The notes below the pieces were generated by a model, which saw nothing but the letters and a program-made list of their open reading frames with translations, ran no database searches and was not told the DNA's origin. Made by a program: the position numbers and the translations under genes. 64,000 nt of DNA, taken from the NCBI GenBank assembly GCA_028713125.1, contig JAQTOU010000005.1, positions 124,001 through 188,000 of the forward strand, in the 5' to 3' direction. The DNA comes from Elusimicrobiales bacterium. GTDB lineage: Bacteria > Elusimicrobiota > Elusimicrobia > Elusimicrobiales > UBA9959. Shown here piece by piece: positions 23,256-41,175 of the stretch. Positions within the stretch are counted from its first letter, which is position 1, and every line of letters starts with the position of its first letter.

Positions 23256-24305
23256 CTATTTTCCAATCAAATGACGTACAAAGACTGTTGCCAAATGCAC
23301 AGGCACAGCATTACCGACTTGTGCTGCCTGTGAAGAGATTCCCGTACCGAAAAAGACATAGCTGTCTGGGAATGTCTGAAGCCTAGCCGCTTCTCTTACC
23401 GAAATTGCCCTATCTTGTGTTGGATGCCCAAATCTACCATTAGAAAGACAAACACACTTTGTTGTAATTGTCGGCGCCGGCTTATCCCAGGCCAGCCGGC
23501 CATAGACATCCTTATGTCCGAGATACTTGTTTTTGTGGCATTTCAACACTAATTCTTTGGCAAAAGAATTGCGGCTGCCCCCATCTTTTGGGACACTTCG
23601 TATTCGCCTTAGATTCAAATCGCTTAAGTTACGGCATGTGTGATTAGGAATTACTTCACTTTTTTCTCCAGCCTGAATAGCCGGTAAATCTTTAATAAAG
23701 TTCCCAACTGTCTTATAGCTCTCTTTATTGTGCCCATGCGTCGAATCAGGAAGAGACATGTGCGTTGTCTCTTTCTTTCCCATAAAGATAAACCGCTTTC
23801 TGTGCTGCGGAACGCCGTAATCTGCAGCGTCAACGACACCGCTTACACATGTGTATTTAAGGCGGTACAAAACATCATGAAAACGATCAAACACTAAATG
23901 GCCACCATCATTTACTCCCGGAACATTTTCTATAAAAATATAATCAGGCTTTCTCTTTAACTCTTCAATAATTCGACTCACATGCGAAAGCAGATTGCTT
24001 CTATCGTCCTCATAACCACGCAAGACATTCTTTCTGTTCTGTGTGCTGAAGGGCTGACATGGGGCGCATGATGACAGCACAAACTCCTCATCGCTTTTTA
24101 AGTCTATCAATGCTAAAAGCTCATTTCCGGTTATCTTAGTAATGTCTGCGGCAAGGAATCTTGCTCCTGGATTATTAAACTCATATGTCTTCTGAAATCC
24201 ATTATTTTTATCTATCCCGAGACGCACGTCGATACCGGCTGTGCGCATGCCCAAGGTAACCCCGCCGGCTCCGCAAAAAAGATCTACTCCGACAATCTTT
24301 CTCAT
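23256..24305 (-). CDS. DNA (cytosine-5-)-methyltransferase 1 of the operon
   Basis: This 349-residue enzyme shows the ordered C5-methyltransferase motifs. Motif I is D-L-F-C-G-A-G-G-V-T-L-G near residue 6, motif IV is S-C-A-P-C-Q-P-F-S with the catalytic Cys, and motif VI is I-E-N-V-P-G. Motif VIII is P-Q-H-R-K-R, and motifs IX-X include E-A-A-R-L-Q-T-F-P-D and the final Q-V-G-N-A-V-P. The target-recognition region between VIII and IX is short, so specificity cannot be read by eye. Its ATG overlaps the end of the DUF6339-like gene by 4 nt (ATGA), placing it last in the seven-gene operon. Having two C5 methyltransferases in one operon is unusual; two target sites or hemimethylated strands could explain it. 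Confidence 0.93.
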   Translation of the reverse strand: MRKIVGVDLFCGAGGVTLGMRTAGIDVRLGIDKNNGFQKTYEFNNPGARFLAADITKITGNELLALIDLKSDEEFVLSSCAPCQPFSTQNRKNVLRGYEDDRSNLLSHVSRIIEELKRKPDYIFIENVPGVNDGGHLVFDRFHDVLYRLKYTCVSGVVDAADYGVPQHRKRFIFMGKKETTHMSLPDSTHGHNKESYKTVGNFIKDLPAIQAGEKSEVIPNHTCRNLSDLNLRRIRSVPKDGGSRNSFAKELVLKCHKNKYLGHKDVYGRLAWDKPAPTITTKCVCLSNGRFGHPTQDRAISVREAARLQTFPDSYVFFGTGISSQAAQVGNAVPVHLATVFVRHLIGK

Positions 24306-25066
24306 GCTACCGTGCTCCCCTCAGCATCTACAGCCTGGATATCTTTTCTGAAAATATCTATTTCCTCTTTAATTTCCTGCTTATTTAAGGAAATCAGTGC
24401 CCGATAGCCGGCAAGAAGGTTTAACCTTCTCATAATTAACCTTACTTTCCCCTCTTTAAACCGAGCAAACAACTCCGGATTTTCGATTACATATTCAAGA
24501 ACAGCATGTGTAAACGCCCTGTTTCGTCCCTGCGTTCCCGGTAAAAGATGCCGAGTATAATCTAGCATGGAAAATAATTCTTTAGTTAACTGATATGGAT
24601 CTGTGCGATCTTTATCATAGGTGATATACGCACCCCACCAAAAAAGAAACAGGTCGTTTGTCTTTAGGGCACCAGCCCCGGGGTTTTGCACAAACCAGTG
24701 ATCTACAATATATCCGGCTCTTCGAGATTCCGCTTCTTTTTCGATAGGCCTTCGTTTTCGCAGATACCCCATAAACGGTCCATGGCAGAGATACGTCCAA
24801 AGCCTTATATCGGTAGCCTGTGTGGGGTCCATATCTTTCCAAAACTCGAAAAGCTTAATCGAGTTTTCACAATCATGACTAAGTTTACCTGGCCCCTCAT
24901 AATCAAGAAAGCCGACCGCATTGAGGTTAATCTCTTTAAGCCCTTTTTTAACCAACAAATCATCCTTGTCTATCGGCCAATCGCCTTTCAAATAGGACTT
25001 TGTATTTCTGCCAATAGTGCTTTTAATTCGACTTATGTAAGATGCTTTAAATATTGGTTGTGACAT
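24302..25066 (-). CDS. DUF6339-like protein of the methylation operon
   Basis: This 254-residue protein has no signal peptide or membrane segment. The middle carries aromatic blocks (L-W-T-Y-L-C-H-G-P-F-M-G-Y-L-R-K-R near residue 92, then F-L-F-W-W-G-A-Y-I-T-Y-D-K-D-R-T-D-P-Y near 145). These recall DUF6339, which I remember from C5-methyltransferase and GHKL neighbourhoods; that assignment is from memory and moderate. The protein is also rich in Arg/Lys towards the end. It overlaps the downstream methyltransferase by 4 nt and starts 6 nt after the stop of the preceding gene, so all are made together. The role is unknown; a scaffold or specificity partner of the GHKL ATPase is plausible. Confidence 0.55.
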   Translation of the reverse strand: MSQPIFKASYISRIKSTIGRNTKSYLKGDWPIDKDDLLVKKGLKEINLNAVGFLDYEGPGKLSHDCENSIKLFEFWKDMDPTQATDIRLWTYLCHGPFMGYLRKRRPIEKEAESRRAGYIVDHWFVQNPGAGALKTNDLFLFWWGAYITYDKDRTDPYQLTKELFSMLDYTRHLLPGTQGRNRAFTHAVLEYVIENPELFARFKEGKVRLIMRRLNLLAGYRALISLNKQEIKEEIDIFRKDIQAVDAEGSTVA

Positions 25067-25072
25067 TATAAT

Positions 25073-25924
25073 TTACCCGTTACAGTTCTCGGCTATCTCC
25101 GTAATAGTCACGAACATCCTATTAACAGGATTGCCCAGAATCTGTTGCGCAATTGTAGGCGCGTTCTCGGCACTCCAAACGCTTTTGCTTAGTACGGCAT
25201 CATTTTGCCTTTTATCTTTAAGAACCGAGGCCCAGGCGAAAACCTCAAATTGCTCTTCGGCCTCAATAAATTGAACAACAGCGTACAATAATGCCGGGAG
25301 GACAATTGCGGAATGAAATAAGTTATCGAATCTGCCAGATTTCTGAAGTAACGAATAGGCGTCGTAGTCGGTAGTGGAAAGTTGGATCGAAATCTTTTCA
25401 CAAGAGAGTTCGATTTTCATCGGTCCGGTCCTAAACCTACCATCAATTATTTCCATAAAATTGCCGACAGCATCGCTTGCCAACCATTGCTTGGGAGCGG
25501 AAAACTGAGTATTACCGGCATACGCCAGTACATCTCCTTTATTTAGATTGAACTTGTATACTCCATAGTCGTTGTGGGCGGTTTTCGGATGAAAATCTCT
25601 AATCCCACGCCTTGCTACTGCATAAAAATCAACCAACACCTGATCACGCAGAAGATTTTCCGGTATTTCTATTGTATGACTCGTTGTCGAGCTAAAATAT
25701 GCTTTACGAAAAAATGTTTTAGGACAGCATATTTCCACCATAAACTCGGCGTCCCCGTTATCCAAATAGTATTGTATGTCTAAATTCCGTAATACATGGC
25801 CGATCGTTATTTTAATTTTATCTACAGCTCGACTTACATGTGGTCCGTCAATTTCATACGACCCGGTCATGTCATCGTTAGACCCCAGAATGGGGTGCGG
25901 AAAAGACAGGCTATTAACTTTCAT
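25073..25924 (-). CDS. Unknown protein between the GHKL ATPase and DUF6339 genes
   Basis: The ATG at 25924 lies inside the end of the GHKL gene, with GTGGGGG just ahead of it, so translation is coupled. The 283-residue product starts L-S-F-P-H-P-I-L-G-S-N-D-D, a compact motif that looks conserved. It then alternates short hydrophobic and polar stretches typical of beta-sandwich proteins (F-M-V-E-I-C-C-P-K-T-F-F-R-K-A-Y). No named domain is recognised. Its fixed place between a GHKL ATPase and a DUF6339-like protein suggests a structural subunit of one complex. Confidence 0.5.
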   Translation of the reverse strand: MKVNSLSFPHPILGSNDDMTGSYEIDGPHVSRAVDKIKITIGHVLRNLDIQYYLDNGDAEFMVEICCPKTFFRKAYFSSTTSHTIEIPENLLRDQVLVDFYAVARRGIRDFHPKTAHNDYGVYKFNLNKGDVLAYAGNTQFSAPKQWLASDAVGNFMEIIDGRFRTGPMKIELSCEKISIQLSTTDYDAYSLLQKSGRFDNLFHSAIVLPALLYAVVQFIEAEEQFEVFAWASVLKDKRQNDAVLSKSVWSAENAPTIAQQILGNPVNRMFVTITEIAENCNG

Positions 25925-27857
25925 AGACCCCCACATTTAGTGAATACTGCTGATTGTCCTCAAACAAAACCGCTAATTTTGCGGAACCTGTTGCATCAGT
26001 TTTTACTCCGCTAATTAGATTATCTTTAAATTGCAACGTTTGATATGATCCTGTGTCCATAACCGATTTAATCGGTATTTTCGCATAATTGTCGTCAGTC
26101 CCTGCCAGAAGTTGCACAAAATATTCCTTATCCTTAGCTCCCCTTAGAATAATTACGTGCTGAATTTTACCATCGAGCCCATTTACGGCAAAAGCCCTAT
26201 GCTTAACATCTACCGAAAGCCATATTTTCTTTTCCCCATCTCCTTCAGCGCCTGAACCACCACCGGCCGAACCAGGCATTGTTCCCCCACCACCACCTGA
26301 CGAAGGGGAAGGTGGATTTGTTCCGGAATCCCCAGCAATTGCCTTACCATCAGTGCTATTACCTGTATCTTTGTGTTTTGTTACCTTAAGCTTTCTTGGA
26401 GGAGTTACGATCGGACGTTGCTCGTCCAGAAAAGCGCCCTCCGTCCCGGTTTCATGATCAGACCTTTCCGCTTTCTCGAGATCGATAGCAGATTCCGCAC
26501 CCATCATATCCCCTTCTACTGACGGCAAATACACATATTTTGCCAATCCGCCGATAGGAAGAGCTCTTCTGTCTTCTTTGGTAATAAGAGACGCAACACA
26601 TTCCCTGGTAAATGAATAAAACTCGGCATATGCCTTTTTCGCTTCGGGCAATATTTCACCCTCCGGATCTTTCGCATTTGTGTTCTCACGGTTCCATTCA
26701 TTATGATTGGGCGGCTCCAGCAGCTTAAGAGCATTATCGCCTTGCTCATTATCACATTCGAATACGCCGGCATACTGAATAACACTTCTATAATCTCTTT
26801 GCTCTATCTTCATTCCAGTGGCTCTCATACAATACATCTGATTTGGGTATCCCTCTCTTGCTAATATACGACACTGGACCTTGCCGATAGTAGGGAGAGT
26901 CTTCTCGAAAACACGACCATCCTTATATGCTAAATAGTACGGGATGGGATTCGACTCGTTCTTCCTATAAACGTCTTTTCTGTCAAACACTTCAAATATC
27001 TTCTTTTCAATATTACTGGAATCTATTTTCTGTCCCTCCACTTCCACATCAAGACTCCCTTTTTGTATGGGCCTCCAGAAATGGTCTAAAATCACTTTGG
27101 TTACATCTTCTTTCCAATGCTTATCACCACGTAACCCGAGAATGTATATATCGGTCCCATTCTCGCTTCGCAAATAGCTGTTTGGAATCAGGCTTTCATC
27201 GCGGACAGGTCTTTCACCGGCCAAACCGAATGAACCCATTCCCCGATATTTAATCCCATCTATCTCATGAGAAATCAAACGGCATTTCCCTTGAAAAAGA
27301 GTCCCAGCAGAAATCCCGTTTCCAAAACGACTTGCAACAAAAATAGTCCTAAAGGAAGAAGCTGCAATAAGCGCCCCCTTCCCAAGACCGAACGATCCGC
27401 CTGTATTGCCGATTTTATTGGTAGAGCCTGCAGCCTTTAGAAAGTTTCTGTAATTACCTGTCGGATCTTCATCGGCGCCAGTTAACCCGACAGTGTTGAA
27501 ATCGCTTATGCGAAGAACCGGAATACGTCTATCGTTTTCAAGATGCTGAACGGCATTACTGAAGAATCTGTTGCTTTGAGGATTGCCATTAGAAGACTTT
27601 ACGCACGCACGCATAATTTTCAAATAACTCTCGCATTCCAACACCTCTTGCGAGTTTATATAGGTTAGATCAAACTTAACTAGGGCGGGCTTCCCAAGCG
27701 ATTTATCGCGTGCGTCTAATACGTTCTGAATTGATTCTCTTGCTACCGCCCTAGGAATATCCTGATCGAATTGTGTGGTGCCACCGTCATTAAAACCATC
27801 GTCATCAGAGGTTCCTTGCTGGGAAAACTCATACCGAAGAAACTTTTGTTCTGACAT
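25914..27857 (-). CDS. GHKL (paraMORC/MutL-like) ATPase of the methylation operon
   Basis: This 647-residue protein shows the GHKL ATP-binding signatures. The N-box is A-R-E-S-I-Q-N-V-L-D-A-R-D near residue 39, the G1 region is L-R-I-S-D-F-N-T-V-G-L near 116, and the G2 loop is G-G-S-F-G-L-G-K-G-A-L near 153. The arrangement (GHKL then S5-like region) resembles the prokaryotic MORC/paraMORC group that Iyer, Abhiman and Aravind described in restriction-modification loci. After residue 500 comes a Gly/Ser/Pro linker with a run of six Gly, then a C-terminal beta-rich domain of about 105 residues. Such ATPases are thought to reshape DNA or clamp it for a nuclease. The next gene starts inside its 3' end, so subunits are co-made. 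Confidence 0.8.
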   Translation of the reverse strand: MSEQKFLRYEFSQQGTSDDDGFNDGGTTQFDQDIPRAVARESIQNVLDARDKSLGKPALVKFDLTYINSQEVLECESYLKIMRACVKSSNGNPQSNRFFSNAVQHLENDRRIPVLRISDFNTVGLTGADEDPTGNYRNFLKAAGSTNKIGNTGGSFGLGKGALIAASSFRTIFVASRFGNGISAGTLFQGKCRLISHEIDGIKYRGMGSFGLAGERPVRDESLIPNSYLRSENGTDIYILGLRGDKHWKEDVTKVILDHFWRPIQKGSLDVEVEGQKIDSSNIEKKIFEVFDRKDVYRKNESNPIPYYLAYKDGRVFEKTLPTIGKVQCRILAREGYPNQMYCMRATGMKIEQRDYRSVIQYAGVFECDNEQGDNALKLLEPPNHNEWNRENTNAKDPEGEILPEAKKAYAEFYSFTRECVASLITKEDRRALPIGGLAKYVYLPSVEGDMMGAESAIDLEKAERSDHETGTEGAFLDEQRPIVTPPRKLKVTKHKDTGNSTDGKAIAGDSGTNPPSPSSGGGGGTMPGSAGGGSGAEGDGEKKIWLSVDVKHRAFAVNGLDGKIQHVIILRGAKDKEYFVQLLAGTDDNYAKIPIKSVMDTGSYQTLQFKDNLISGVKTDATGSAKLAVLFEDNQQYSLNVGVYES

Positions 27858-28807: not shown

Positions 28808-29217
28808 ATGTCCGCCTTAAAGAACTTCATAAGTTTAGCCTTAGCTTTTGTTGTATTCTTTAGCTCACATTGCCAGATTATAAGAGGTTTCCAGCCCAAC
28901 GCTTTAAGCGATTTAACAGACCTACTGTCTCGTAATATATTTATTGCTATTTTCTCTTGCCAGAATTTAACATTTGTCGCAGGCAATTCTGCGCGCCGGC
29001 AATTCTTATGGCCATGCCAAAAACAACCGTGAACAAAAATAACTTTTTTCAGGCGGGGTAAAGTGAGGTCTGGTTTTCCAGGCAGCTTACATCCCCCCAA
29101 CCGAAAACGAAACCCCAGCTTGTGCACTAACGATCTTACTTGAAGTTCGGGTTTTGTGTCGCACCCCTTAACACGCGACATAATCCAACTTCGTTTTCTC
29201 TTTGTGAATCGATCCAT
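28804..29217 (-). CDS. vsr: Very short patch repair (Vsr) endonuclease
   Basis: I start the gene at 29217 (M-D-R-F-T-K-R-K-R-S-W-I-M-S-R-V), giving 137 residues, the normal size of Vsr. It has the Vsr landmarks: S-R-V-K-G near residue 14, D-T-K-P-E-L, then G-K-P-D-L-T-L-P-R near residue 46, which holds the catalytic Asp. F-V-H-G-C-F-W-H-G-H-x-x-C follows with the zinc/active-site residues. Vsr nicks T:G mismatches that arise when 5-methylcytosine deaminates. It overlaps the preceding methyltransferase by 50 nt in another frame, the classical dcm-vsr arrangement, and therefore most likely repairs the sites methylated by that enzyme. Confidence 0.92.
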   Translation of the reverse strand: MDRFTKRKRSWIMSRVKGCDTKPELQVRSLVHKLGFRFRLGGCKLPGKPDLTLPRLKKVIFVHGCFWHGHKNCRRAELPATNVKFWQEKIAINILRDSRSVKSLKALGWKPLIIWQCELKNTTKAKAKLMKFFKADM

Positions 29218-30472
29218 TATTAGTGTTTTTGCTGGCAGAAAGAATTGAGTAAACACAGTCTGCAATCCGTGCTGCAAACACCGGAGGAACTGCGTTGCCG
29301 ATCTGACGCGCAATTTCGGTTTTAGTTCCCTTAAACACAAAATTATCCGGGAAGGTTTGTATTCGCGCTGCTTCGCGGTGTGTTATAGGGCGATGTTGCT
29401 TCGGATGCAGATACCGGCCCTTTTCGGGTTTAAAGAATTCTGTCCTAATGGTTAAGGCAGTACGGTCCCACCACAATCTGCCGAATAAGTCCGTGCCGCC
29501 GCTTTTTTTATTGATCCAGCACCTCGGTGTCAATTCAGGGGCAAGACGCTGTAAATCAAAACGATTCATCCCTTCTTTAGGAATTGCTTTGTACCGCCGA
29601 AGGCTACTAGGGATGGGATTGCGCCCAAAATGGAGATCTAAAGGCGGGGCGACTTTTCGGATATCAGTGCCTACCGGCGCCGGCAAGTCTTCTATGGCGT
29701 CTCGGACCGTCTGCCATTTCACTGGGGTAGATAAAAAGTCTTCTTCTTTAAACAGTGACGGGTCTTTTTCTATCCCGTGGTATCCCGGGTTATAGTGAGT
29801 CTTTCTGGGCGGAAAAACAAGCGCCGGGTCGATTGTCTTAGACCCGATTATTATCGCGCGCCAGCGTGCCTGAGGTACGCCGTAATCTGCGGCGCAAACT
29901 TTACCTTGCCAAATCCTAGTAAACCCCAATTCTTTTGCGGTGTCGATAATTTGCTGATTTTCCTCAGTCCCTAAAAGCTGAGGAACGTTTTCAATAACAA
30001 ATACTTTCGCCTTAACACGTTTGACGACTTCCAAATACTGACGCCACAACTGCCGCCGCGGGTCGTTGTCTCTGTTTTTGTTTAAAAGGCTGAATCCTTG
30101 GCAGGGAGGTCCACCGATAACAACATCCGCCTCTGGGATGACTATAGACGGGTTATTAAGTATGTCTACGATGTCACCATATACTCCATGGCTCCCGAAA
30201 TTATTGTTGTAGGTGTCTATGCAATACTTGTTAAAGTCATTGGCCCAAACCGGTTTAAAATGATGACCAAAGAATTCGGTAAACCCGAGGGTCATCCCCC
30301 CGGCTCCGCAAAAAAGGTCCACTAATTTGTACGGTATTTTGGGTGTGGCAAGTGATTCTCGCCGGCGAGCCTCATATGTGGCTAGATCTTCACTTAAAAG
30401 AAGGCTTTTAAGGTCCCTTTTGGCGGGGGTATATGAGATTCGCTTTTTAAGGATCTTTCTCTTCTGTTTCAT
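29168..30472 (-). CDS. DNA (cytosine-5-)-methyltransferase 2, first gene of the operon
   Basis: The ATG at 30472 follows GGAG; the frame is open further up to 30508 without support. The 434-residue enzyme has motif I (L-V-D-L-F-C-G-A-G-G-M-T-L-G), motif IV (G-G-P-P-C-Q-G-F-S, catalytic Cys), motif VI (I-E-N-V-P) and motif VIII (Q-A-R-W-R). The end has E-A-A-R-I-Q-T-F-P-D and Q-I-G-N-A-V-P-P. A basic N-terminal extension of about 50 residues precedes motif I. Its 3' end overlaps vsr. It differs clearly from the other methyltransferase of the operon (different motif IV and a long variable region), so the two should have different targets. The promoter carries operator copy E5. Confidence 0.93.
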   Translation of the reverse strand: MKQKRKILKKRISYTPAKRDLKSLLLSEDLATYEARRRESLATPKIPYKLVDLFCGAGGMTLGFTEFFGHHFKPVWANDFNKYCIDTYNNNFGSHGVYGDIVDILNNPSIVIPEADVVIGGPPCQGFSLLNKNRDNDPRRQLWRQYLEVVKRVKAKVFVIENVPQLLGTEENQQIIDTAKELGFTRIWQGKVCAADYGVPQARWRAIIIGSKTIDPALVFPPRKTHYNPGYHGIEKDPSLFKEEDFLSTPVKWQTVRDAIEDLPAPVGTDIRKVAPPLDLHFGRNPIPSSLRRYKAIPKEGMNRFDLQRLAPELTPRCWINKKSGGTDLFGRLWWDRTALTIRTEFFKPEKGRYLHPKQHRPITHREAARIQTFPDNFVFKGTKTEIARQIGNAVPPVFAARIADCVYSILSASKNTNNGSIHKEKTKLDYVAC

Positions 30473-30552
30473 ACTAAGACTCCAGTTTCTATATGTATAA
30501 TCTACCAAATATGGGGCCCATTGTTAATTGACCACGTCGAGAGCTTTGTAAG

Positions 30553-30591
30553 AGTATAGCAGACCAACCCGACAAGGGTGTGTCGGGTTGG
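30553..30591 (-). promoter_or_regulatory. Shared operator-promoter module, methyltransferase operon copy (E5)
   Basis: The palindrome CCAACCCGACA-AGGGTG-TGTCGGGTTGG (30564-30591) has 11-bp arms. TTGTCG is followed by 11 nt and TATACT (30553-30558) with TGC in front, 81 nt before the methyltransferase ATG. It is the only member of the operator family inside the AT-rich island. Confidence 0.8.
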
Positions 30592-30646
30592 AAACAAGAT
30601 GTTTAAAGTTTTTTTGAGGTTTAATTCCGGTGTAGTCGTGTGCCTT

Positions 30647-31459
30647 TCATTTAAATGTCATTTTCCTATGGATATCAAGAAATTTTTGAGATGGAACAAA
30701 TCGCTTGGGCATGGTCAACTGCCTGCCCTCATAAGATTTAAAGACATCTTGAAATGCCCGATTTGAATAGTACTTTTCTAAGCGCGGATGAAGCAACATA
30801 CGATAATTTTCATCAAATGTAATCAAAAAACGATCAAAGGCCGTATCGTATGTCGCAGATAAGCATAAACCATTGGCCGGATTGAGTCTGTTTTCCTCAT
30901 CTTCCGCCCAAGCCACAATATGACTAGCCCGCAATACGTCTGGGATATTTAGACCGGTTATACAGCATTGCGTATCATAATTGTTTAAAATCATTTTACG
31001 AAAGAACCCTTGATTTATCCGTGTTTTAACCTGTCGAAGAGCATCTTCACCTTTTTGTCCGTCACCAGGAAGGATCAATTTAGCCCCATTTATTTCTTTA
31101 TCGCTTAACTTACGCGACAATTCAGATGCGCTGATACCTGGTGCGTTATAGACCCCCCAGAGTTCACTCTCATAGCCAGCTAAAACCAGAAACTCCTGAT
31201 AGCTTTTTAAGGCGGCTGAATAAAATCGGGACTTCCAGTAGCTGGAGGGCTCCTGTCCTCTGAAAACCCCCTTCTCTCCGAGATTCTGCTGAATAAGCAC
31301 CTCTTTGTAGAGTTCTTCAATCTGCTGTGGCGTTTTAACGGCCCAAATATTCTTTTTAACAATTGGTCCAAGCAAGTCTAATGCCCTGATATATGAAGAT
31401 GCCTTGTTGCTGCCTTCAAGGTTTTGCTCCTTCATGTATTCCGAATATAGATTTTTCAT
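30647..31459 (-). CDS. HNH_2-type restriction endonuclease
   Basis: This 270-residue protein carries a C-terminal HNH_2 domain: Y-D-T-Q-C-C-I-T-G-L-N-I, R-A-S-H-I-V-A-W-A, N-P-A-N-G-L-C-L-S-A-T-Y-D-T-A-F-D-R. This form is common in restriction enzymes paired with C5 methyltransferases. The N-terminal 150 residues are helical and may provide recognition. The gene lies upstream of the methyltransferase operon on the same strand but on the other side of its promoter, so it is a separate unit that could still supply the cutting activity. The AT-rich composition matches its neighbours. Confidence 0.8.
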   Translation of the reverse strand: MKNLYSEYMKEQNLEGSNKASSYIRALDLLGPIVKKNIWAVKTPQQIEELYKEVLIQQNLGEKGVFRGQEPSSYWKSRFYSAALKSYQEFLVLAGYESELWGVYNAPGISASELSRKLSDKEINGAKLILPGDGQKGEDALRQVKTRINQGFFRKMILNNYDTQCCITGLNIPDVLRASHIVAWAEDEENRLNPANGLCLSATYDTAFDRFLITFDENYRMLLHPRLEKYYSNRAFQDVFKSYEGRQLTMPKRFVPSQKFLDIHRKMTFK

Positions 31460-33013: not shown

Positions 33014-34486
33014 TTAATTGTCTATTTCGTAAAATCTCTGCCCTAAGTAATGTTCCACTTCAGATTGCCCTTTGAGCCTACACCTTAAGAGTTGCTCGAC
33101 GTCTGCATCATCTAGTGGGATCACATGCCCACGGCCTTTCGAAGCCGCATCCCTACAACGCTGAATGAATAGTCTTTTGTCCACAAACCTCCTATTCATT
33201 ATAAATCCAAACTTGCCATTATTAACGTTAAATCGCCCCAAAAGCTGATCCAACTCCGGATTTCCTGGATCATCAGAATAATTCTTGCACTCGATAAAAA
33301 TATACGCACAGGGGATATTCCTGACTTTGTTTAGCCAACTAAAAAACCCTTGCTTCCCGGCATTTGTAAAAATTATATCGACTCTTTTCCTTCCTTGGTC
33401 AATTTCCGCCTCAATTCTTGGATAATTTAGGGATGGAGAGAAAATAACTTCAAGCAAGCCAAAAACTTGTCGATGATAATCTGTCGCTGATTTGTTCCCC
33501 GCTGGAATTCTTTTTAATTCCGCAATCAATTCTCCCTCATTGTGCAGAAGATTACCTGCTCCAGCAATATGCAGATCGTCTTCCGATAGCTCAGTAAGAC
33601 TCTTTTCTTTGTTTTTTCTATATCCATCCAATACTTTTATATTTTTAGCAGAAAAGTCGTTTAGAAAGTCTTTGGAGTATCTGTATTCTGTCCTGCCCTC
33701 CAAGGTCTTTTTATAGGGCGGGCGCTGTTCTCCTTTTCTTTTGCCCGACTTTAGTAGTCGTACAAGGCTTGAGTTAGAGGTTAAATGCTCATTCTGAATA
33801 AACTCCAAAACATCTTTTTTATAGTACTCATAAGAATTAAACGCGATACGCCACTGGACAAAGGCTTTGGGAATCAGAAGGACAACCCTCCCGTTACAAA
33901 TTGGAAGTCTTGCTGATGCTGGCTGCCAACCTACACTTCCACCCACCCAGACATAACCGGCAGACACCTCCCGGTCACATGGCACACCCCAAAGCTCACA
34001 TTGATCGACAGTGTATTCAATTAAATGTTTACGAATTAGATTAGTTGTTATATCTGATATCTTGTCTGATGCTAGGTCTTCAACCAAAAGCGCACAATCT
34101 TCCAAATCTTTGAGAAGACCAGTTTTAATTGCCTTACTGCGTGTTAAGGCATCCAACAAAGCTTCTGCCTGTATTCCACCCACACCCCTCCCACGAGAAA
34201 CACTCCCCTTTGAAAGCCCCAAATGTGTTTGGTTTGGCTCTCTAAGATAAGACAGCAACTCCAAAGCCTCATCCTTTTTATTGGCTTGAATAGATCTAAG
34301 TACGCGCCCAAAGAAATCGACAATCGTATTGTGACAATCAAAAGCAAGCCTGTCCTCTCTATGATGAATGGCAAAAGGGTCAATAAATAATGGAATATCC
34401 CCTTTAATTGGAACATCAACAAAATCCAGCTCCGCCTGACTTTTATTTAATTTAAAGTATTCAGAGAACTTTGTTTTTTTAGGCAT
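33014..34486 (-). CDS. Restriction-endonuclease-like protein (C-terminal PD-(D/E)XK)
   Basis: The chosen ATG at 34486 begins M-P-K-K-T-K-F-S-E-Y-F-K-L-N; the open frame continues upstream only as the antisense of the helicase gene. The 490-residue protein has an N-terminal block (A-E-L-D-F-V-D-V-P, L-F-I-D-P-F-A) of unknown type. Its C-terminal core is R-I-E-A-E-I-D-Q-G-R-K-R-V-D-I-I-F followed by I-F-I-E-C-K-N, the Asp and Glu-x-Lys of a Mrr-like nuclease. It ends just after 33013 and starts 8 nt from the end of the helicase gene, at the sharp GC transition that marks the island edge. It may belong to the helicase operon or to the island. Confidence 0.55.
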   Translation of the reverse strand: MPKKTKFSEYFKLNKSQAELDFVDVPIKGDIPLFIDPFAIHHREDRLAFDCHNTIVDFFGRVLRSIQANKKDEALELLSYLREPNQTHLGLSKGSVSRGRGVGGIQAEALLDALTRSKAIKTGLLKDLEDCALLVEDLASDKISDITTNLIRKHLIEYTVDQCELWGVPCDREVSAGYVWVGGSVGWQPASARLPICNGRVVLLIPKAFVQWRIAFNSYEYYKKDVLEFIQNEHLTSNSSLVRLLKSGKRKGEQRPPYKKTLEGRTEYRYSKDFLNDFSAKNIKVLDGYRKNKEKSLTELSEDDLHIAGAGNLLHNEGELIAELKRIPAGNKSATDYHRQVFGLLEVIFSPSLNYPRIEAEIDQGRKRVDIIFTNAGKQGFFSWLNKVRNIPCAYIFIECKNYSDDPGNPELDQLLGRFNVNNGKFGFIMNRRFVDKRLFIQRCRDAASKGRGHVIPLDDADVEQLLRCRLKGQSEVEHYLGQRFYEIDN

Positions 34487-34494
34487 ATGTAACC

Positions 34495-36882
34495 TTAAAC
34501 GCACTTCCCCACCACTTCCGCTACTACCATGAACTCTTCGTCTTCCGCGTTCGGGATCACTATGGGGCTGTAGGCCGGGTTCAGCGGCTGCAGGATTATT
34601 TCTTCGTGCTGCCAGGCGCCGTCGGGGGCGTATTTCTTTTTGCTGGTGTATTTCTTTACGGTGTAGCTGCCGCCGGTGTCCGGGTCGGCTATGGCGCTGT
34701 GCTGCACCAGCACCAGCTTGTTCTGGCGGCTGCCGCCCGGGTTGGCGCGGAATACGCAGTAGTCGCCGTCCTGCAATCTGGGCTCCATGCTGCGCCCGGC
34801 CACTTGCGCGGCGAACATGTTGTGGTCGGGCTTCAGGCCGGGAGGGCATTTTATCCAGCCAAGCGGCTCTACGGCCATGCCGCGGCCTAAATTGCCGCAG
34901 GCGGCCTGCAGGCTGAACACGGGGAGGTAAGCCGTAAATTTCAGGGCGGCGGCCACTTCTTCTTCTATCCTGGAAAGCACCTTAAGCGCGGCAGCCGCGG
35001 GCGCGGCTTGGGCTGCCGGCGCGGGCGCGAGGAGGGCTTTAAAGTGCCGGGCGGTTTCTTCGTCCGTAAAGTGCACGTAGCAGCCCTTAAGGCCCCTGGT
35101 CATAAGGGTGCGGTAGGTGTTCTTTATTATGGCGTCCAGCCGGAGCTTTGCGGCGGCGGGGTCTTTTTTGGCCAGGGCTTTCCAGCCGTGGATGGATCTA
35201 TCGCTGCCGGCGCGCGCGCCGGGCGCGGTTAGCACTTCGCCAGCGCGCACTATAAGGTCCGGGCCCACTATTACGCCCACGTAGTCCAGCTCCAGGCCCT
35301 GGCAGGTGTGTATGCAGCCCACCTCGCTTACGGAAGCCGGCTGTATTATCCAGGTCTGGCCGTCTTGGGTAAGGTTCCAGGCGGCCTGGTAAGCGCCTAT
35401 TACTATGTCCTTCAGCCTGGGATCCTTCTTGCTGAGCCAGGGCCAGCAGTAGCCGGCCACCACGCGGGCTTTGTTGCTGGTGTTCTTCTGGCGGATAAGG
35501 GCATGCAGTTGGGCGGGGTCGTCCAGCACCCTGAAATCGTAGTCGCCGGTATCCAGCGTGTCGTTGGCGCTGGCTTTGGCTATGCCTAGGGCATAGTCCA
35601 GCCAGGCCAGGTAGCCGTCCGAGCCGTTGCAGCGGAACTGGGACTCCAGTTTTAGCTCGGTCACAATGGCGGCGTGCTTTTTGGCCCAGCGGCGGATCTC
35701 TTCTTTGTCGCCGATGTCCTTCAGCGTTACTTTCTGGTCTTCGTCTATAAAGAAAATGGAGAGCTTTGAGGCGTTTATGAGTTCTTTTATCTGGTTCTCG
35801 CCCTTACTGTCTACCCAACCGGATTTTTTCTTAAGACGGTGCGCCTCATCCACAATAAGACAGTCGTACTCGTTGGCCTGGGCCTGGTGGAAGGTTTCGG
35901 AACTGCGGAACATGTTATCTATACGCGTACGGCTCAGCGTGCCCGCCAGTTTAGCTGCGTACACAAGGCGGGGCGCGGAAGTTCGCGTTACATAGTGGGC
36001 CAGCATATCTTTGTTGGTAAGCGCCACCAGCAGATTTATGGCCACCACGCTTTTGCCGGTGCCGGGGCCGCCTTCAACTATGAGCACGTGCTTTTGGCCG
36101 GTGGCGGCCTGGCGAGCCTGGGCCAGGGCGGTCTCGTAGACTATCTTCTGGTCGTCCACCATTACGAATTCCTGGTTGCCCCGCAGCATGCCGGCCAGGC
36201 TGTCGGCCAGGTTCTTGGAGGGTTTTATTTTGCCGTTGTCTATGCGGTAAAGCAGCCCGTCCCGGCCGGCCCTGTCGCCGTGGCGGATGTTGCGCTTTAT
36301 GAATTCCTGCAGCTTCAGGGCGTCGGGCTTCAGGAAGACCGGGGCTTCTTTGGTGTATTGGGCGTAGAACGGGTTGGTTATGGTGTTGTCGGGCGCGTAA
36401 TTGTGCAGGTAGGCGCAGGGGTAAAGGTTTATTTTTTCTTCCTGCACGGTTGCGTTGTAGTCTTGCAGCAGGCGCTTGTAGGTCCAGGCCTGGTAGGAAG
36501 GGTGCGGGGTCTCCTGCGGGCCGCCCTTGAAGGTGGTTACTACTATGCCGTCCTTGGCGGTGAGGTCCGCCTGCTGCCACTGCTTTAGTTCCACCAGGAT
36601 GGCGGTGGCGGTGTGCTGGGCGTCGGTGCCGGTGAGGATGAAGTCTATGCGCTTGCTGGAGCGCGGGATGTGGTACTCTATGGCCACGCCGGCGGTGGCG
36701 GGGATGGCGGGGTCTTCCAGCACGCGGTCCATGTACTGCAGGGAGTTTACCCAGGAATTTATTTCGGACTGTTTGGTGCCGTGGCCGGTTACAGACTTGA
36801 AGGTGCTGGCGATGATGCCGCCGATGTCATTAGACATGACATCCTGCCGGAAGCGGCTTTTTGTGCCGGTGTAGACTATCAC
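34495..36882 (-). CDS. Nuclease-DUF2075 helicase-S24 peptidase fusion
   Basis: Three parts are visible in 795 residues. At residues 50-110 a nuclease-like core has R-I-D-F-I-L-T-G and A-I-L-V-E-L-K-Q-W. At about 260-640 lies DUF2075, a Schlafen-related SF1-type ATPase, with Walker A G-G-P-G-T-G-K-S-V and Walker B C-L-I-V-D-E-A-H-R. The last 140 residues are a LexA/UmuD-type S24 domain: G-M-A-V-E-P-L-G-W-I, then V-A-G-R-S-M-E-P with the catalytic Ser, and a strand V-K-K-Y carrying the partner Lys. S24 domains self-cleave in response to RecA filaments, so damage could switch this enzyme. The gene overlaps the MazG-like gene by 4 nt (ATGA), coupling the two. It is GC-rich, unlike the island next door. 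Confidence 0.8.
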   Translation of the reverse strand: MIVYTGTKSRFRQDVMSNDIGGIIASTFKSVTGHGTKQSEINSWVNSLQYMDRVLEDPAIPATAGVAIEYHIPRSSKRIDFILTGTDAQHTATAILVELKQWQQADLTAKDGIVVTTFKGGPQETPHPSYQAWTYKRLLQDYNATVQEEKINLYPCAYLHNYAPDNTITNPFYAQYTKEAPVFLKPDALKLQEFIKRNIRHGDRAGRDGLLYRIDNGKIKPSKNLADSLAGMLRGNQEFVMVDDQKIVYETALAQARQAATGQKHVLIVEGGPGTGKSVVAINLLVALTNKDMLAHYVTRTSAPRLVYAAKLAGTLSRTRIDNMFRSSETFHQAQANEYDCLIVDEAHRLKKKSGWVDSKGENQIKELINASKLSIFFIDEDQKVTLKDIGDKEEIRRWAKKHAAIVTELKLESQFRCNGSDGYLAWLDYALGIAKASANDTLDTGDYDFRVLDDPAQLHALIRQKNTSNKARVVAGYCWPWLSKKDPRLKDIVIGAYQAAWNLTQDGQTWIIQPASVSEVGCIHTCQGLELDYVGVIVGPDLIVRAGEVLTAPGARAGSDRSIHGWKALAKKDPAAAKLRLDAIIKNTYRTLMTRGLKGCYVHFTDEETARHFKALLAPAPAAQAAPAAAALKVLSRIEEEVAAALKFTAYLPVFSLQAACGNLGRGMAVEPLGWIKCPPGLKPDHNMFAAQVAGRSMEPRLQDGDYCVFRANPGGSRQNKLVLVQHSAIADPDTGGSYTVKKYTSKKKYAPDGAWQHEEIILQPLNPAYSPIVIPNAEDEEFMVVAEVVGKCV

Positions 36883-37232
36883 TTCTTCAGCCCTGTATAC
36901 TTGGTGTGGCGGCCTTTGGCTTTGGAGACTGGGTATTTTTTGGCGTTCTTCTTGAGTTTTTTGGAGAGGGCGGCGAGCGGGTCTATTTTCAGGTCGTGGC
37001 TGAGGAGGAGGACCCAGTAGAGGATGTCGGCGAGTTCTTCGGAGACTTCGGTTTTATGGGTTTTGAGGTGGGCCGCTATTTCCGCGGGGTTCTTCCACTG
37101 GAAGTGCTCCAGCAGTTCGGCGGCTTCGAGGGAGAGGGAGATGGCGACGTCTTTGGGATTGTGGAATTGCGCCCAGTCGCGCGCATCGCGAAAAGCAATG
37201 ATCTTTTTAGTGAGGTTTTCGATGCTGCTCAT
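36879..37232 (-). CDS. MazG-like nucleotide pyrophosphohydrolase
   Basis: This 117-residue all-alpha enzyme has the MazG/dCTPase metal motif. E-A-A-E-L-L-E-H-F near residue 37 and E-E-L-A-D-I-L-Y-W near residue 65 supply the ExxE and ExxD side chains. Members hydrolyse (d)NTPs to the monophosphate, including damaged or modified nucleotides, and some starve phage of dNTPs. The basic C-terminus is ordinary for the RS21-C6-like subgroup. It overlaps the nuclease-helicase-S24 gene by 4 nt and is the first gene of that unit. Two perfect 12-bp repeats lie just ahead of it. Confidence 0.85.
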   Translation of the reverse strand: MSSIENLTKKIIAFRDARDWAQFHNPKDVAISLSLEAAELLEHFQWKNPAEIAAHLKTHKTEVSEELADILYWVLLLSHDLKIDPLAALSKKLKKNAKKYPVSKAKGRHTKYTGLKK

Positions 37233-38845: not shown

Positions 38846-39130
38846 CTAAACAAAGTTTATCTCTATCCGCTTGCCGAATACACGGGCTATTTTTTCAAGC
38901 GTATTATAGGAAGGCTTATATTTGTCCTGTTCCAGCCTTGAGATCACCTGCTGCTTGGTATGGAGCTTTTTCGCCAGCTCGGCCTGCGTCATATGGGCCC
39001 GCTCACGCAGGTCAGCTATCTTATGTGCGATCAGCAGGCGCTCAACGCCGCGTTCATAGGCGCCGCGCCGGGCGGGAGTCTTGAAATATTCCTTCACGAA
39101 ATCATCGTGCGTATAGACTTTCCGTTTCAT
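38846..39130 (-). CDS. higA: HigA-like XRE antitoxin
   Basis: This 94-residue protein has a helix-turn-helix of the Cro/CI type in its C-terminal half: M-T-Q-A-E-L-A-K-K-L-H-T-K-Q-Q-V-I-S-R-L-E. It is read right after the toxin gene, overlapping it by 4 nt (ATGA). The toxin-first order is the one used by HigBA systems. The N-terminal 40 residues are charged and could cover the toxin. The inverted repeat at 39514-39534 in front of the pair is a probable binding site. Operator copy E6 adds a second layer of control. Confidence 0.85.
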   Translation of the reverse strand: MKRKVYTHDDFVKEYFKTPARRGAYERGVERLLIAHKIADLRERAHMTQAELAKKLHTKQQVISRLEQDKYKPSYNTLEKIARVFGKRIEINFV

Positions 39131-39480
39131 ATGTTTTCCTCCACTATGCGGGCCAGGTACTCCGCGCGTATCCGCTTCGCCCTCTCTATTTCCCCTGTCG
39201 GCACGGCCCTGGTCTTCTTCAGAAACCCATGCGTAAGAACTATTTCGCTGCCGTTAAAGAAATACAATATCCTCGGCTCATAATGCGCGAAGGTCACCCG
39301 CAATTCGAAGATCCTGTCCTCCAGGTAACTGACATATTGAGGCCTGGCCAGCGGCCCGGCAGAAGCCAGGTACCCGACATGTTCCGCTATCTTTCTGCCG
39401 ACCTTCCTTGGCAGCCCCCGGACGAATTCGGCGGCATAATTGTCGCCGCGCCGGGAAACATAATAAATGACAGTGTACAT
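39127..39480 (-). CDS. higB: HigB/Gp49-like mRNA-interferase toxin
   Basis: I start at 39480 (M-Y-T-V-I-Y-Y-V-S), where AAGGGGG precedes. The 117-residue protein is of the phage Gp49/RelE-like type: L-E-D-R-I-F-E-L-R-V-T-F near residue 55, then R-I-L-Y-F-F-N-G and L-T-H-G-F-L-K-K-T. This matches the family order of strand, Phe/Leu strand and T-H-x-F-x-K-K. Relatives cleave mRNA on the ribosome. The antitoxin gene overlaps by 4 nt. Promoter control is probably double: the local 9-bp inverted repeat for HigA and the shared operator further up. Confidence 0.85.
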   Translation of the reverse strand: MYTVIYYVSRRGDNYAAEFVRGLPRKVGRKIAEHVGYLASAGPLARPQYVSYLEDRIFELRVTFAHYEPRILYFFNGSEIVLTHGFLKKTRAVPTGEIERAKRIRAEYLARIVEENI

Positions 39481-39513
39481 CGCGCCCCCTTCGCGGGGCA
39501 TACACATCTATTT

Positions 39514-39690: not shown

Positions 39691-41175
39691 ATGTTTACGA
39701 AACGCATCTCAAAATCGCAGTTCATGATGGGGCTGCAGTGCCTTAAAAGGCTCTGGCTTTATAACCATCGCCGGGACCTAAGGCCGCCCATCGGGCCGGA
39801 ACAGCAGCAGCTGTTCGACCAAGGGCATGCCATAGGCCTGCTTGCGCGCGAATATTTCGCTGGAGGGGTCCTGGTCGACGCCGATTACAAGCACATCCCG
39901 CAGGCTCTTAAGCAGACCGCGGAACTCATCGAGGGCGGCGCTGATATTGTCTACGAGGGGGCTTTTGTTTTTGCAAATGTGCTGGTTCGCTGCGACATCC
40001 TGAAGCGGAACCGGGACGGGTCATGGGACCTCATAGAAGCCAAGGGCTCTACGGAGGTTAAGGATGAGCACCTGCGGGACGTGGCCGTGCAGCGTTATGT
40101 CCTGGAAGGATCTGGGCTCAAGTTAAAGAAGACGCTTCTGATGCGCATCGACAATAGTTTTATCAAGTCCGGCCCGCTGGATGCCAGGAAGTTATTCGCG
40201 CTCGAGGATATAAGCAAAGAAACCGCCGCACTTATGCCTGAGACAGGCCGGGACCTGGAGCGGTTCACTGAAACCCTGGCCTCCGCGGAAGCGCCGGAGC
40301 CAGGCATAGGCCGGCATTGTTCCACGCCTTATGATTGCGAGTTCCGCGGATATTGCTGGAAGGGGATACCGGAGTATTCCATTTACGATATCCCGCGCCT
40401 GAGCTGGGAAAAGAAGTCCATGCTTAAGGCTATGGGCATTTTGCTCTTCAGAAATGTTCCCGACAGCTTTGACCTGAGCGAAGGGCAGAAACTGGCCTTG
40501 AAGGTCGAGAAAAGCGGAGAGGCTCTTTTGGATAGGAAAAAGCTGGCTAAATTCCTGAAGAAGATAAAATATCCTCTGTACCACATAGATTTTGAAACCG
40601 TGATGCCGGGCCTGCCGCTTTATGACGGGACGAGGCCTTACCAGCAGCTGCCTTTCCAGGTTTCACTCCATGTCCAGGCCGCGCCGGGCGCGGCGCCTGC
40701 TCATTTCGAATATCTCGGCGACGGTTTAAACGACCCGCGGCCAGGCCTTATAAGCTTCATGCTGGAGAAGATCGGTCCGGAGGGCACGCTTCTTGCTTTT
40801 AATTCCTCTTTCGAAATGAAAAGGATAGAAGAGCTGGAGAGGGACTTCCCGGCTTCAGGCGCGGCTTTAGCAGCCTTGCTTGGCCGTTTCGAAGACCTAA
40901 TGAAGCCTTTCCTGGAAAGGGCTTATGTGCACCCGGACTGCCATGGCCGGTTTTCGCTTAAGAAGATCTTGCCGGCGCTTATACCGGACATGACTTACGA
41001 AGGCCTGGCCGTAGCCAATGGCGGCGACGCGCAGCTGGCTTACTATAATATACTTTCCGGGAAGCTCCCCCGCGCGGAAGCGGAGCAGCTCCGTAAGGAC
41101 CTGAAAATATATTGCGGCCAGGACACGCTGGCCATGGTAAAGATCATGGAACACCTCATTTGGATCATTTTATGA
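39691..41175 (+). CDS. DUF2779 protein: Cas4-like nuclease fused to an RNase H-like exonuclease
   Basis: This 494-residue protein has two nuclease-type domains. Residues 1-240 resemble Cas4/RecB: an early Cys (G-L-Q-C-L-K-R-L-W) and a late cluster (H-C-S-T-P-Y-D-C-E-F-R-G-Y-C-W) form the iron-sulphur staple. V-R-C-D-I-L-K and D-L-I-E-A-K-G-S supply the catalytic Asp and ExK. Residues 290-494 contain the DUF2779 exonuclease-like fold, with Y-H-I-D-F-E-T at its start and Y-C-G-Q-D-T-L-A-M near the end, like DEDD exonucleases. No CRISPR array is present in the window. The promoter carries operator E7. The gene overlaps the HAD gene by 4 nt. Confidence 0.8.
   Translation: MFTKRISKSQFMMGLQCLKRLWLYNHRRDLRPPIGPEQQQLFDQGHAIGLLAREYFAGGVLVDADYKHIPQALKQTAELIEGGADIVYEGAFVFANVLVRCDILKRNRDGSWDLIEAKGSTEVKDEHLRDVAVQRYVLEGSGLKLKKTLLMRIDNSFIKSGPLDARKLFALEDISKETAALMPETGRDLERFTETLASAEAPEPGIGRHCSTPYDCEFRGYCWKGIPEYSIYDIPRLSWEKKSMLKAMGILLFRNVPDSFDLSEGQKLALKVEKSGEALLDRKKLAKFLKKIKYPLYHIDFETVMPGLPLYDGTRPYQQLPFQVSLHVQAAPGAAPAHFEYLGDGLNDPRPGLISFMLEKIGPEGTLLAFNSSFEMKRIEELERDFPASGAALAALLGRFEDLMKPFLERAYVHPDCHGRFSLKKILPALIPDMTYEGLAVANGGDAQLAYYNILSGKLPRAEAEQLRKDLKIYCGQDTLAMVKIMEHLIWIIL

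Follow-up and report, generated by a model that had tools for sequence, protein, structure and literature searches.

How bacteria protect themselves from their own nucleases upon DNA damage is understood only in a few restriction-modification systems of Escherichia coli. In EcoKI restriction alleviation, HsdR is inactivated through ClpXP proteolysis upon the appearance of unmodified sites in host DNA, by direct action of ClpXP and with no need for the LexA regulon (PMC11109961). Among nuclease-helicase defences, AbpAB is turned on, not off, when a phage protein is bound to ssDNA or DNA is damaged (PMC10732053), and Nhi and AbiO are single-chain proteins in which a helicase of the same broad type as the one described here is likewise joined to a nuclease. 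UmuD and LexA cut their own chains at a defined bond through a Ser-Lys pair. Here we describe a locus in which a LexA/UmuD-type (S24) module is fused to a nuclease-helicase, so that the proposed switch would reside in the nuclease chain itself.

The locus lies in a 64,000-nucleotide stretch of contig JAQTOU010000005.1 from an Elusimicrobiales bacterium (positions 124,001 to 188,000; assembly GCA_028713125.1), hereafter the window, whose first letter is position 1. Two adjoining genes, whose architecture and pairing can be read from the sequence, show the following features:

34495..36882, minus strand: nuclease-SLFN-g3 (DUF2075) helicase-S24 protein, 795 aa, GTG start
36406..36771, minus strand: PD-(D/E)XK-like nuclease core, aa 38-159, from invariant residues and AlphaFold secondary structure
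35062..36093, minus strand: SLFN-g3 helicase, aa 264-607, from Pfam PF09848 and structure matches
34498..34929, minus strand: LexA/UmuD-type S24 module, aa 652-795, from Pfam PF00717, PDB profile and LexA fold
34894..34899, minus strand: predicted self-cleavage bond Cys662-Gly663, from alignment with E. coli UmuD and LexA
34789..34791, minus strand: predicted catalytic Ser698, kept in 64/64 S24-bearing sequences of the 81 aligned; UmuD/LexA alignment
34654..34656, minus strand: predicted catalytic Lys743, kept in 63/64 of the same S24-bearing sequences; UmuD/LexA alignment
36879..37232, minus strand: MazG-like all-alpha NTP pyrophosphohydrolase, 117 aa, from Pfam, with the metal motif E36xxE39 + E66xxD69 intact
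36879..36882, minus strand: 4-nt stop/start overlap (GTGA) of the MazG-like and 795-aa genes, read in the sequence

A preliminary description of this DNA had already proposed the three-part chain, the catalytic Ser in G-R-S-M-E-P and the four-nucleotide overlap with a dNTP pyrophosphohydrolase gene, and all of these readings held, the helicase and S24 parts through Pfam and the nuclease core through its motif and the AlphaFold model; its functional interpretation finds support in part. As a DNA cutter with a DNA motor, encoded together with a nucleotide-destroying partner, the 795-aa enzyme is probably an anti-virus defence.

The N-terminal nuclease part gave no match among Pfam families or PDB sequences in profile searches. 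In the alignment of 81 sequences, D80 and E98-L-K100 of this putative core are invariant (81/81), as are E69, Q101 and W102. The AlphaFold model shows a helix at 38-54, strands at 65-71, 78-86 and 92-100, a helix at 128-142 and a strand at 152-159, and this alpha-beta-beta-beta-alpha-beta order, together with the D/E-x-K motif, points to a PD-(D/E)XK-like core. The following region matches SLFN-g3_helicase (DUF2075; Pfam, 3.5e-98), carries the Walker A motif GGPGTGK277 and the Walker B motif D345-E-A-H, and resembles UvrD (Z 20) and SLFN11 (Z 18) in structure comparison. SLFN11 is also the best PDB match of the whole model in Foldseek; the human Schlafen proteins SLFN11 and SLFN14 have the SLFN-g3 helicase in common with the window protein, whereas its N-terminal nuclease is PD-(D/E)XK-like, and neither of them is known to carry an S24 module. 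A search of a viral structure library returned generic helicases and one CI repressor and was uninformative. PADLOC matched the helicase part to the Nhi and AbiO models (1e-12 to 1e-13), but the profiles cover only residues 237-419 (AbiO) and 238-419 (Nhi) of the window protein and leave the nuclease part unmatched, so that membership of AbiO or Nhi as whole proteins was not found; the matched models are without the MazG partner and the S24 module, both of which are present here. Membership of a named PADLOC system was rejected because the matches are partial and confined to the helicase, and PADLOC, to which the preliminary description had pointed, holds no fitting system for the pair of MazG and nuclease-SLFN-helicase.

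The C-terminal part matches Peptidase_S24 at aa 684-791 (Pfam, 1.7e-9), which exceeds the curated cut-off, just as the helicase and MazG-like matches exceed theirs, and a profile made from 45 S24 modules matched no PDB chains other than LexA (1.2e-5). When modelled separately (pLDDT 85.6), the module best matches Thermotoga maritima LexA (VIA Z 13.0, 3.8 Å over 129 residues), with the lambda repressor and UmuD ranking next. Alignment with E. coli UmuD and LexA, taken from the MG1655 record, places Ser698 and Lys743 (in T-V-K-K-Y) on the catalytic residues of both, and C662-G663 on their cleavage sites, 35 residues ahead of Ser698, the spacing between G25 and S60 in E. coli UmuD. The window S24 shares with UmuD and LexA the fold, the Ser-Lys pair, the cleavage bond and the distance from this bond to the Ser, but differs in its fusion to a nuclease-helicase and in a Ser-Lys spacing of 45 rather than 37, owing to a longer loop. 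A missing Lys partner would have spoken against self-cleavage according to the preliminary description; the alignment with UmuD that it called for located both this Lys and the cleavage bond, which is conserved as [A/C]-G among the S24-bearing relatives. The three residues ahead of the predicted cut (P3-P2-P1) read [IVAM]-A-[AC] in 62 of the 64 S24-bearing sequences. Bond, Ser and Lys occur together in complete modules, and they are lost jointly in the S24 copies on type III Res enzymes of two relatives (L150/L151), in which AAG has become VVR, Ser has become Ala and Lys has become Arg; the module of L014 is degenerate. The S24 chemistry thus looks to be under selection, its elements being retained or lost as a set, and the module of the window is predicted to be a LexA-type self-cleavage module with intact residues. 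In one close relative (L021:9833-12253) the S24 domain is interrupted by an insertion and some stretches have diverged, which may reflect faulty assembly or decay of this copy.

The 117-aa partner contains a MazG-like domain (Pfam, 8.5e-19), and the metal-binding ExxE...ExxD residues E36, E39, E66 and D69 are conserved at 99-100% among MazG-like partners. Among solved structures it comes closest to an archaeal pyrophosphatase and to dCTP pyrophosphatase 1; it matches DCTPP1/RS21-C6 at 1e-15 and differs from it in adjoining a nuclease gene. A scan of GTDB contigs yielded 383 stretches encoding relatives of the enzyme, and of the best 80 of these, 69 have a MazG-like gene no more than 10 kb away, some of the other 11 loci being near contig ends. 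The gene occurs in three layouts: it may precede the enzyme gene on the same strand, follow it, as in the Halomonas group, or lie downstream on the opposite strand; in the upstream layout a 4-nt overlap or a 1-nt contact was seen in 8 loci and mostly short gaps elsewhere. The retention of MazG across such rearrangement argues for a functional link. A second family, from gammaproteobacterial genomes, has a GIY-YIG nuclease joined, by Pfam, to a helicase of the same type and to the same S24 module, and MazG stands directly upstream in 9/9 checked loci. The recurrence of MazG-DUF2075 pairs, which the preliminary description had suggested looking for, is therefore clear, and the pair, seen with two unrelated nuclease types, is a candidate defence system without an entry in PADLOC 2.0. 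In the best 80 of 383 loci MazG is the only broadly conserved neighbour and no dedicated methyltransferase partner was found, whereas type I restriction-modification systems have a methyltransferase; a gene resembling nucleotidyltransferases is a repeated neighbour chiefly within the Halomonas group. For MazG, starvation of phage replication for dNTPs and removal of modified phage dNTPs would both be compatible with these findings.

The S24 module is absent from 17 of the 81 relatives, which retain the nuclease and helicase motifs and, in 15 of the 17 cases, MazG; the module therefore appears to be a switch added to a working enzyme. On the enzyme tree, made by a quick method and with some long branches, the S24 label changes six times, with at least three changes forced by well-supported branches, which points to several gains or losses of the module within the family. 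The S24 of L068 is shorter and more LexA-like than the others and was apparently acquired separately. Genome searches with the S24 module by itself matched 22/295, 13/349 and 16/277 genomes, and revealed fusions beyond the PD-(D/E)XK-SLFN enzymes of the window family and the GIY-YIG-SLFN enzymes of gammaproteobacterial genomes: with a type I HsdR beside HsdM and HsdS (L118), with a DruE-like helicase of 1987 aa adjoining a type IIG restriction-modification enzyme (L117), with two families of ResIII-type enzymes (L152/L153 and L154-L156), and with a type III Res next to a type III methyltransferase (L157/L158). Some weak or broken module matches (L113, L114, L131-L133) could be assigned to no partner, and on plasmids the module was found in one record, a Halomonas megaplasmid. 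The HsdR (L118:4104-6902) carries its S24 at aa 82-234, and a gene for an RtcR-type CARF regulator lies upstream. In a tree of the modules, a quick tree of 162 columns and hence a lead only and no proof of domain swap, the window S24, along with those of other Elusimicrobiota and of one Omnitrophota, clusters with modules of restriction enzymes (95, starred) and not with most modules from its own enzyme family. The preliminary description had held that homologues without S24 would mark a random fusion; such homologues do exist, but random fusion was rejected, given the intact residues, the repeated gain or loss and the sharing of the module with restriction enzymes (HsdR, ResIII-type, DruE-like). 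Since the module is also found on enzymes without a detected MazG, S24 control and MazG coupling seem to be separable traits. A broader reading, plausible but held with less than even confidence, is that a LexA-type cassette has repeatedly been attached to ATP-dependent restriction and defence nucleases, with damage-coupled removal serving as restriction alleviation within the enzyme itself; the recipients would be the two MazG-linked SLFN nuclease-helicases, HsdR, ResIII-type enzymes and the DruE-like helicase, an extension we put forward with the same reserve. The literature searched, which left most subscription journals outside, yielded no paper that treats DUF2075 together with MazG, GIY-YIG or phage defence, nor anything relevant on S24 with restriction enzymes; the built-in damage-controlled switch that these S24-bearing defence enzymes suggest had no published description there.

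We tentatively propose, at nearly even confidence, that the two genes form a defence module in which S24 is a RecA-triggered, self-cleaving off-switch on the nuclease-helicase. The module would pair the MazG-like nucleotide pyrophosphohydrolase with the ATP-driven nuclease-helicase, and the latter would attack invading or replicating DNA. RecA filaments on single-stranded DNA would trigger self-cleavage of the chain between C662 and G663, leaving the nuclease-helicase as aa 1-662 and the S24 domain as aa 663-795. The cut may destabilise or inactivate the nuclease, so that a damaged host would be spared self-destruction of its DNA, a built-in form of restriction alleviation. If this is true, a LexA-type module on a nuclease would couple defence to RecA without the detour through transcription. 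We infer the RecA trigger from S24 family membership and from the host genome, in which recA is adjacent to a LexA-like gene; the off direction, the defence against phage and the role of MazG are likewise inferences.

The main rival reading, which we consider unlikely although it is the strongest of the alternatives, has the S24 domain inhibit the nuclease-helicase until RecA filaments, arising while a phage replicates or host DNA is broken down, induce the self-cleavage that frees a toxic enzyme and brings about abortive infection, one of the two outcomes, freed or destroyed, that the preliminary description had named. UmuD is activated by the same cut, and the C-terminal position of S24 behind a linker modelled with low confidence (aa 621-637 and 662-670, pLDDT <50) would be compatible with an autoinhibitory lid. 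Moreover, several nuclease-helicase defences, AbpAB among them, turn on in response to phage proteins on ssDNA or to damaged DNA (PMC10732053), a precedent that counts against the off direction. Nevertheless, if release meant activation, the 17 S24-less relatives would be permanently released, yet they keep their motifs and mostly MazG, and the module also occurs on a type I HsdR beside HsdM and HsdS, where DNA methylation already gates enzymes of this type. The off-switch is favoured by these S24-less relatives, by the position of the HsdR module immediately ahead of the matched nuclease part, and by the [IVAM]-A-[AC] before the cut, which resembles the Val-Ala-Ala end of cut LexA. That end is a signal for ClpX. 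Against reading it as a degron here, Ala at P2-P1 may merely reflect protease specificity, and the new end in the window would be Ala-Ala-Cys, a poorer degron. The off direction is favoured further by the fact that ClpXP proteolysis already turns off E. coli HsdR (PMC11109961).

It is distinctly improbable that S24 cleaves itself for another reason, either under a trigger other than RecA or as constitutive maturation after which the two chains stay together. IrvR, a LexA-like protein, departs from RecA control (PMC7101444), a full-length LexA match was missing in 3 of the 26 genomes that have the S24 form, and the operon is without an SOS box of the E. coli type. SOS boxes were not enriched upstream of the operon (7 loci against 9.2 expected, for the E. 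coli-type box only, an unfair test outside proteobacteria), and LexA-box control of the operon was rejected on this count; post-translational control would need no such box. On the other side, LexA-like genes accompany the S24 form in 23/26 genomes versus 10/17 without it (p 0.034), an association that phylogeny confounds, that is partly driven by four Bacteroidota genomes and that does not serve as our main support for a RecA-triggered off-switch.

Less probable still is a module for DNA repair and nucleotide sanitation, in which MazG would clear damaged dNTPs and the nuclease-helicase would process lesions during the SOS response. The RecA/LexA-type module and the kinship of MazG with the archaeal pyrophosphatase and dCTP pyrophosphatase 1 would suit it, but the S24 module is common to restriction enzymes, and the genomic setting is that of a defence gene. 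Matches are patchy in the phylum, with 4 of 150 Elusimicrobiota genomes (two as fragments only, one in the helicase part only) and 2 of 5 genomes within the genus of the window. The Elusimicrobia relatives L001 and L003 have one upstream gene family in common, whereas their downstream genes differ. Such rare occurrence and variable neighbours are more in keeping with defence than with housekeeping. Around 19-37 kb, the window holds matches to type II restriction genes, an HNH nuclease, PDC-M33A/B/C, PDC-M36A and a type IV-like enzyme, and by these matches it is a defence island. That S24 is a catalytically dead leftover kept for structure alone is scarcely credible, because bond, Ser and Lys are jointly intact in the window protein and in almost every relative, the degenerate copies L150/L151 and L014 notwithstanding.

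A phage origin of the enzyme was rejected, as a pattern scan of viral contigs gave no match and the four matching records of a phage collection all stay below 80% query coverage. A relative without S24 (55.6% over aa 1-615) is encoded in the Microcystis phage Mwe-JY31 record (PP438423.1:3861-5705); this copy could be cargo or host contamination.

Several neighbouring genes of the window are recorded here. The downstream gene (33014-34487, minus strand) starts with an ATG 7 nt past the stop of the 795-aa gene and matches PDC-M36A (8.5e-48), a PADLOC candidate family; a longer ORF of 611 aa overlaps the 795-aa gene and is an unlikely start. Three adjacent genes (24302-27857, minus strand) match the candidate system PDC-M33A/B/C (4e-103, 1.5e-49 and 1.1e-38). 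Two C5-cytosine methyltransferases lie at 29168-31459 and 23256-24305 (minus strand), the first adjoining the HNH nuclease, which weakly matches a PT-DNA restriction endonuclease model. On the other side, a look-alike of a RelE/HigB-type toxin with an HTH antitoxin, judged from translations only, is encoded at 38846-39507 (minus strand), and a DUF2779 protein with a weak Cas4-like match at 39691-41175 (plus strand).
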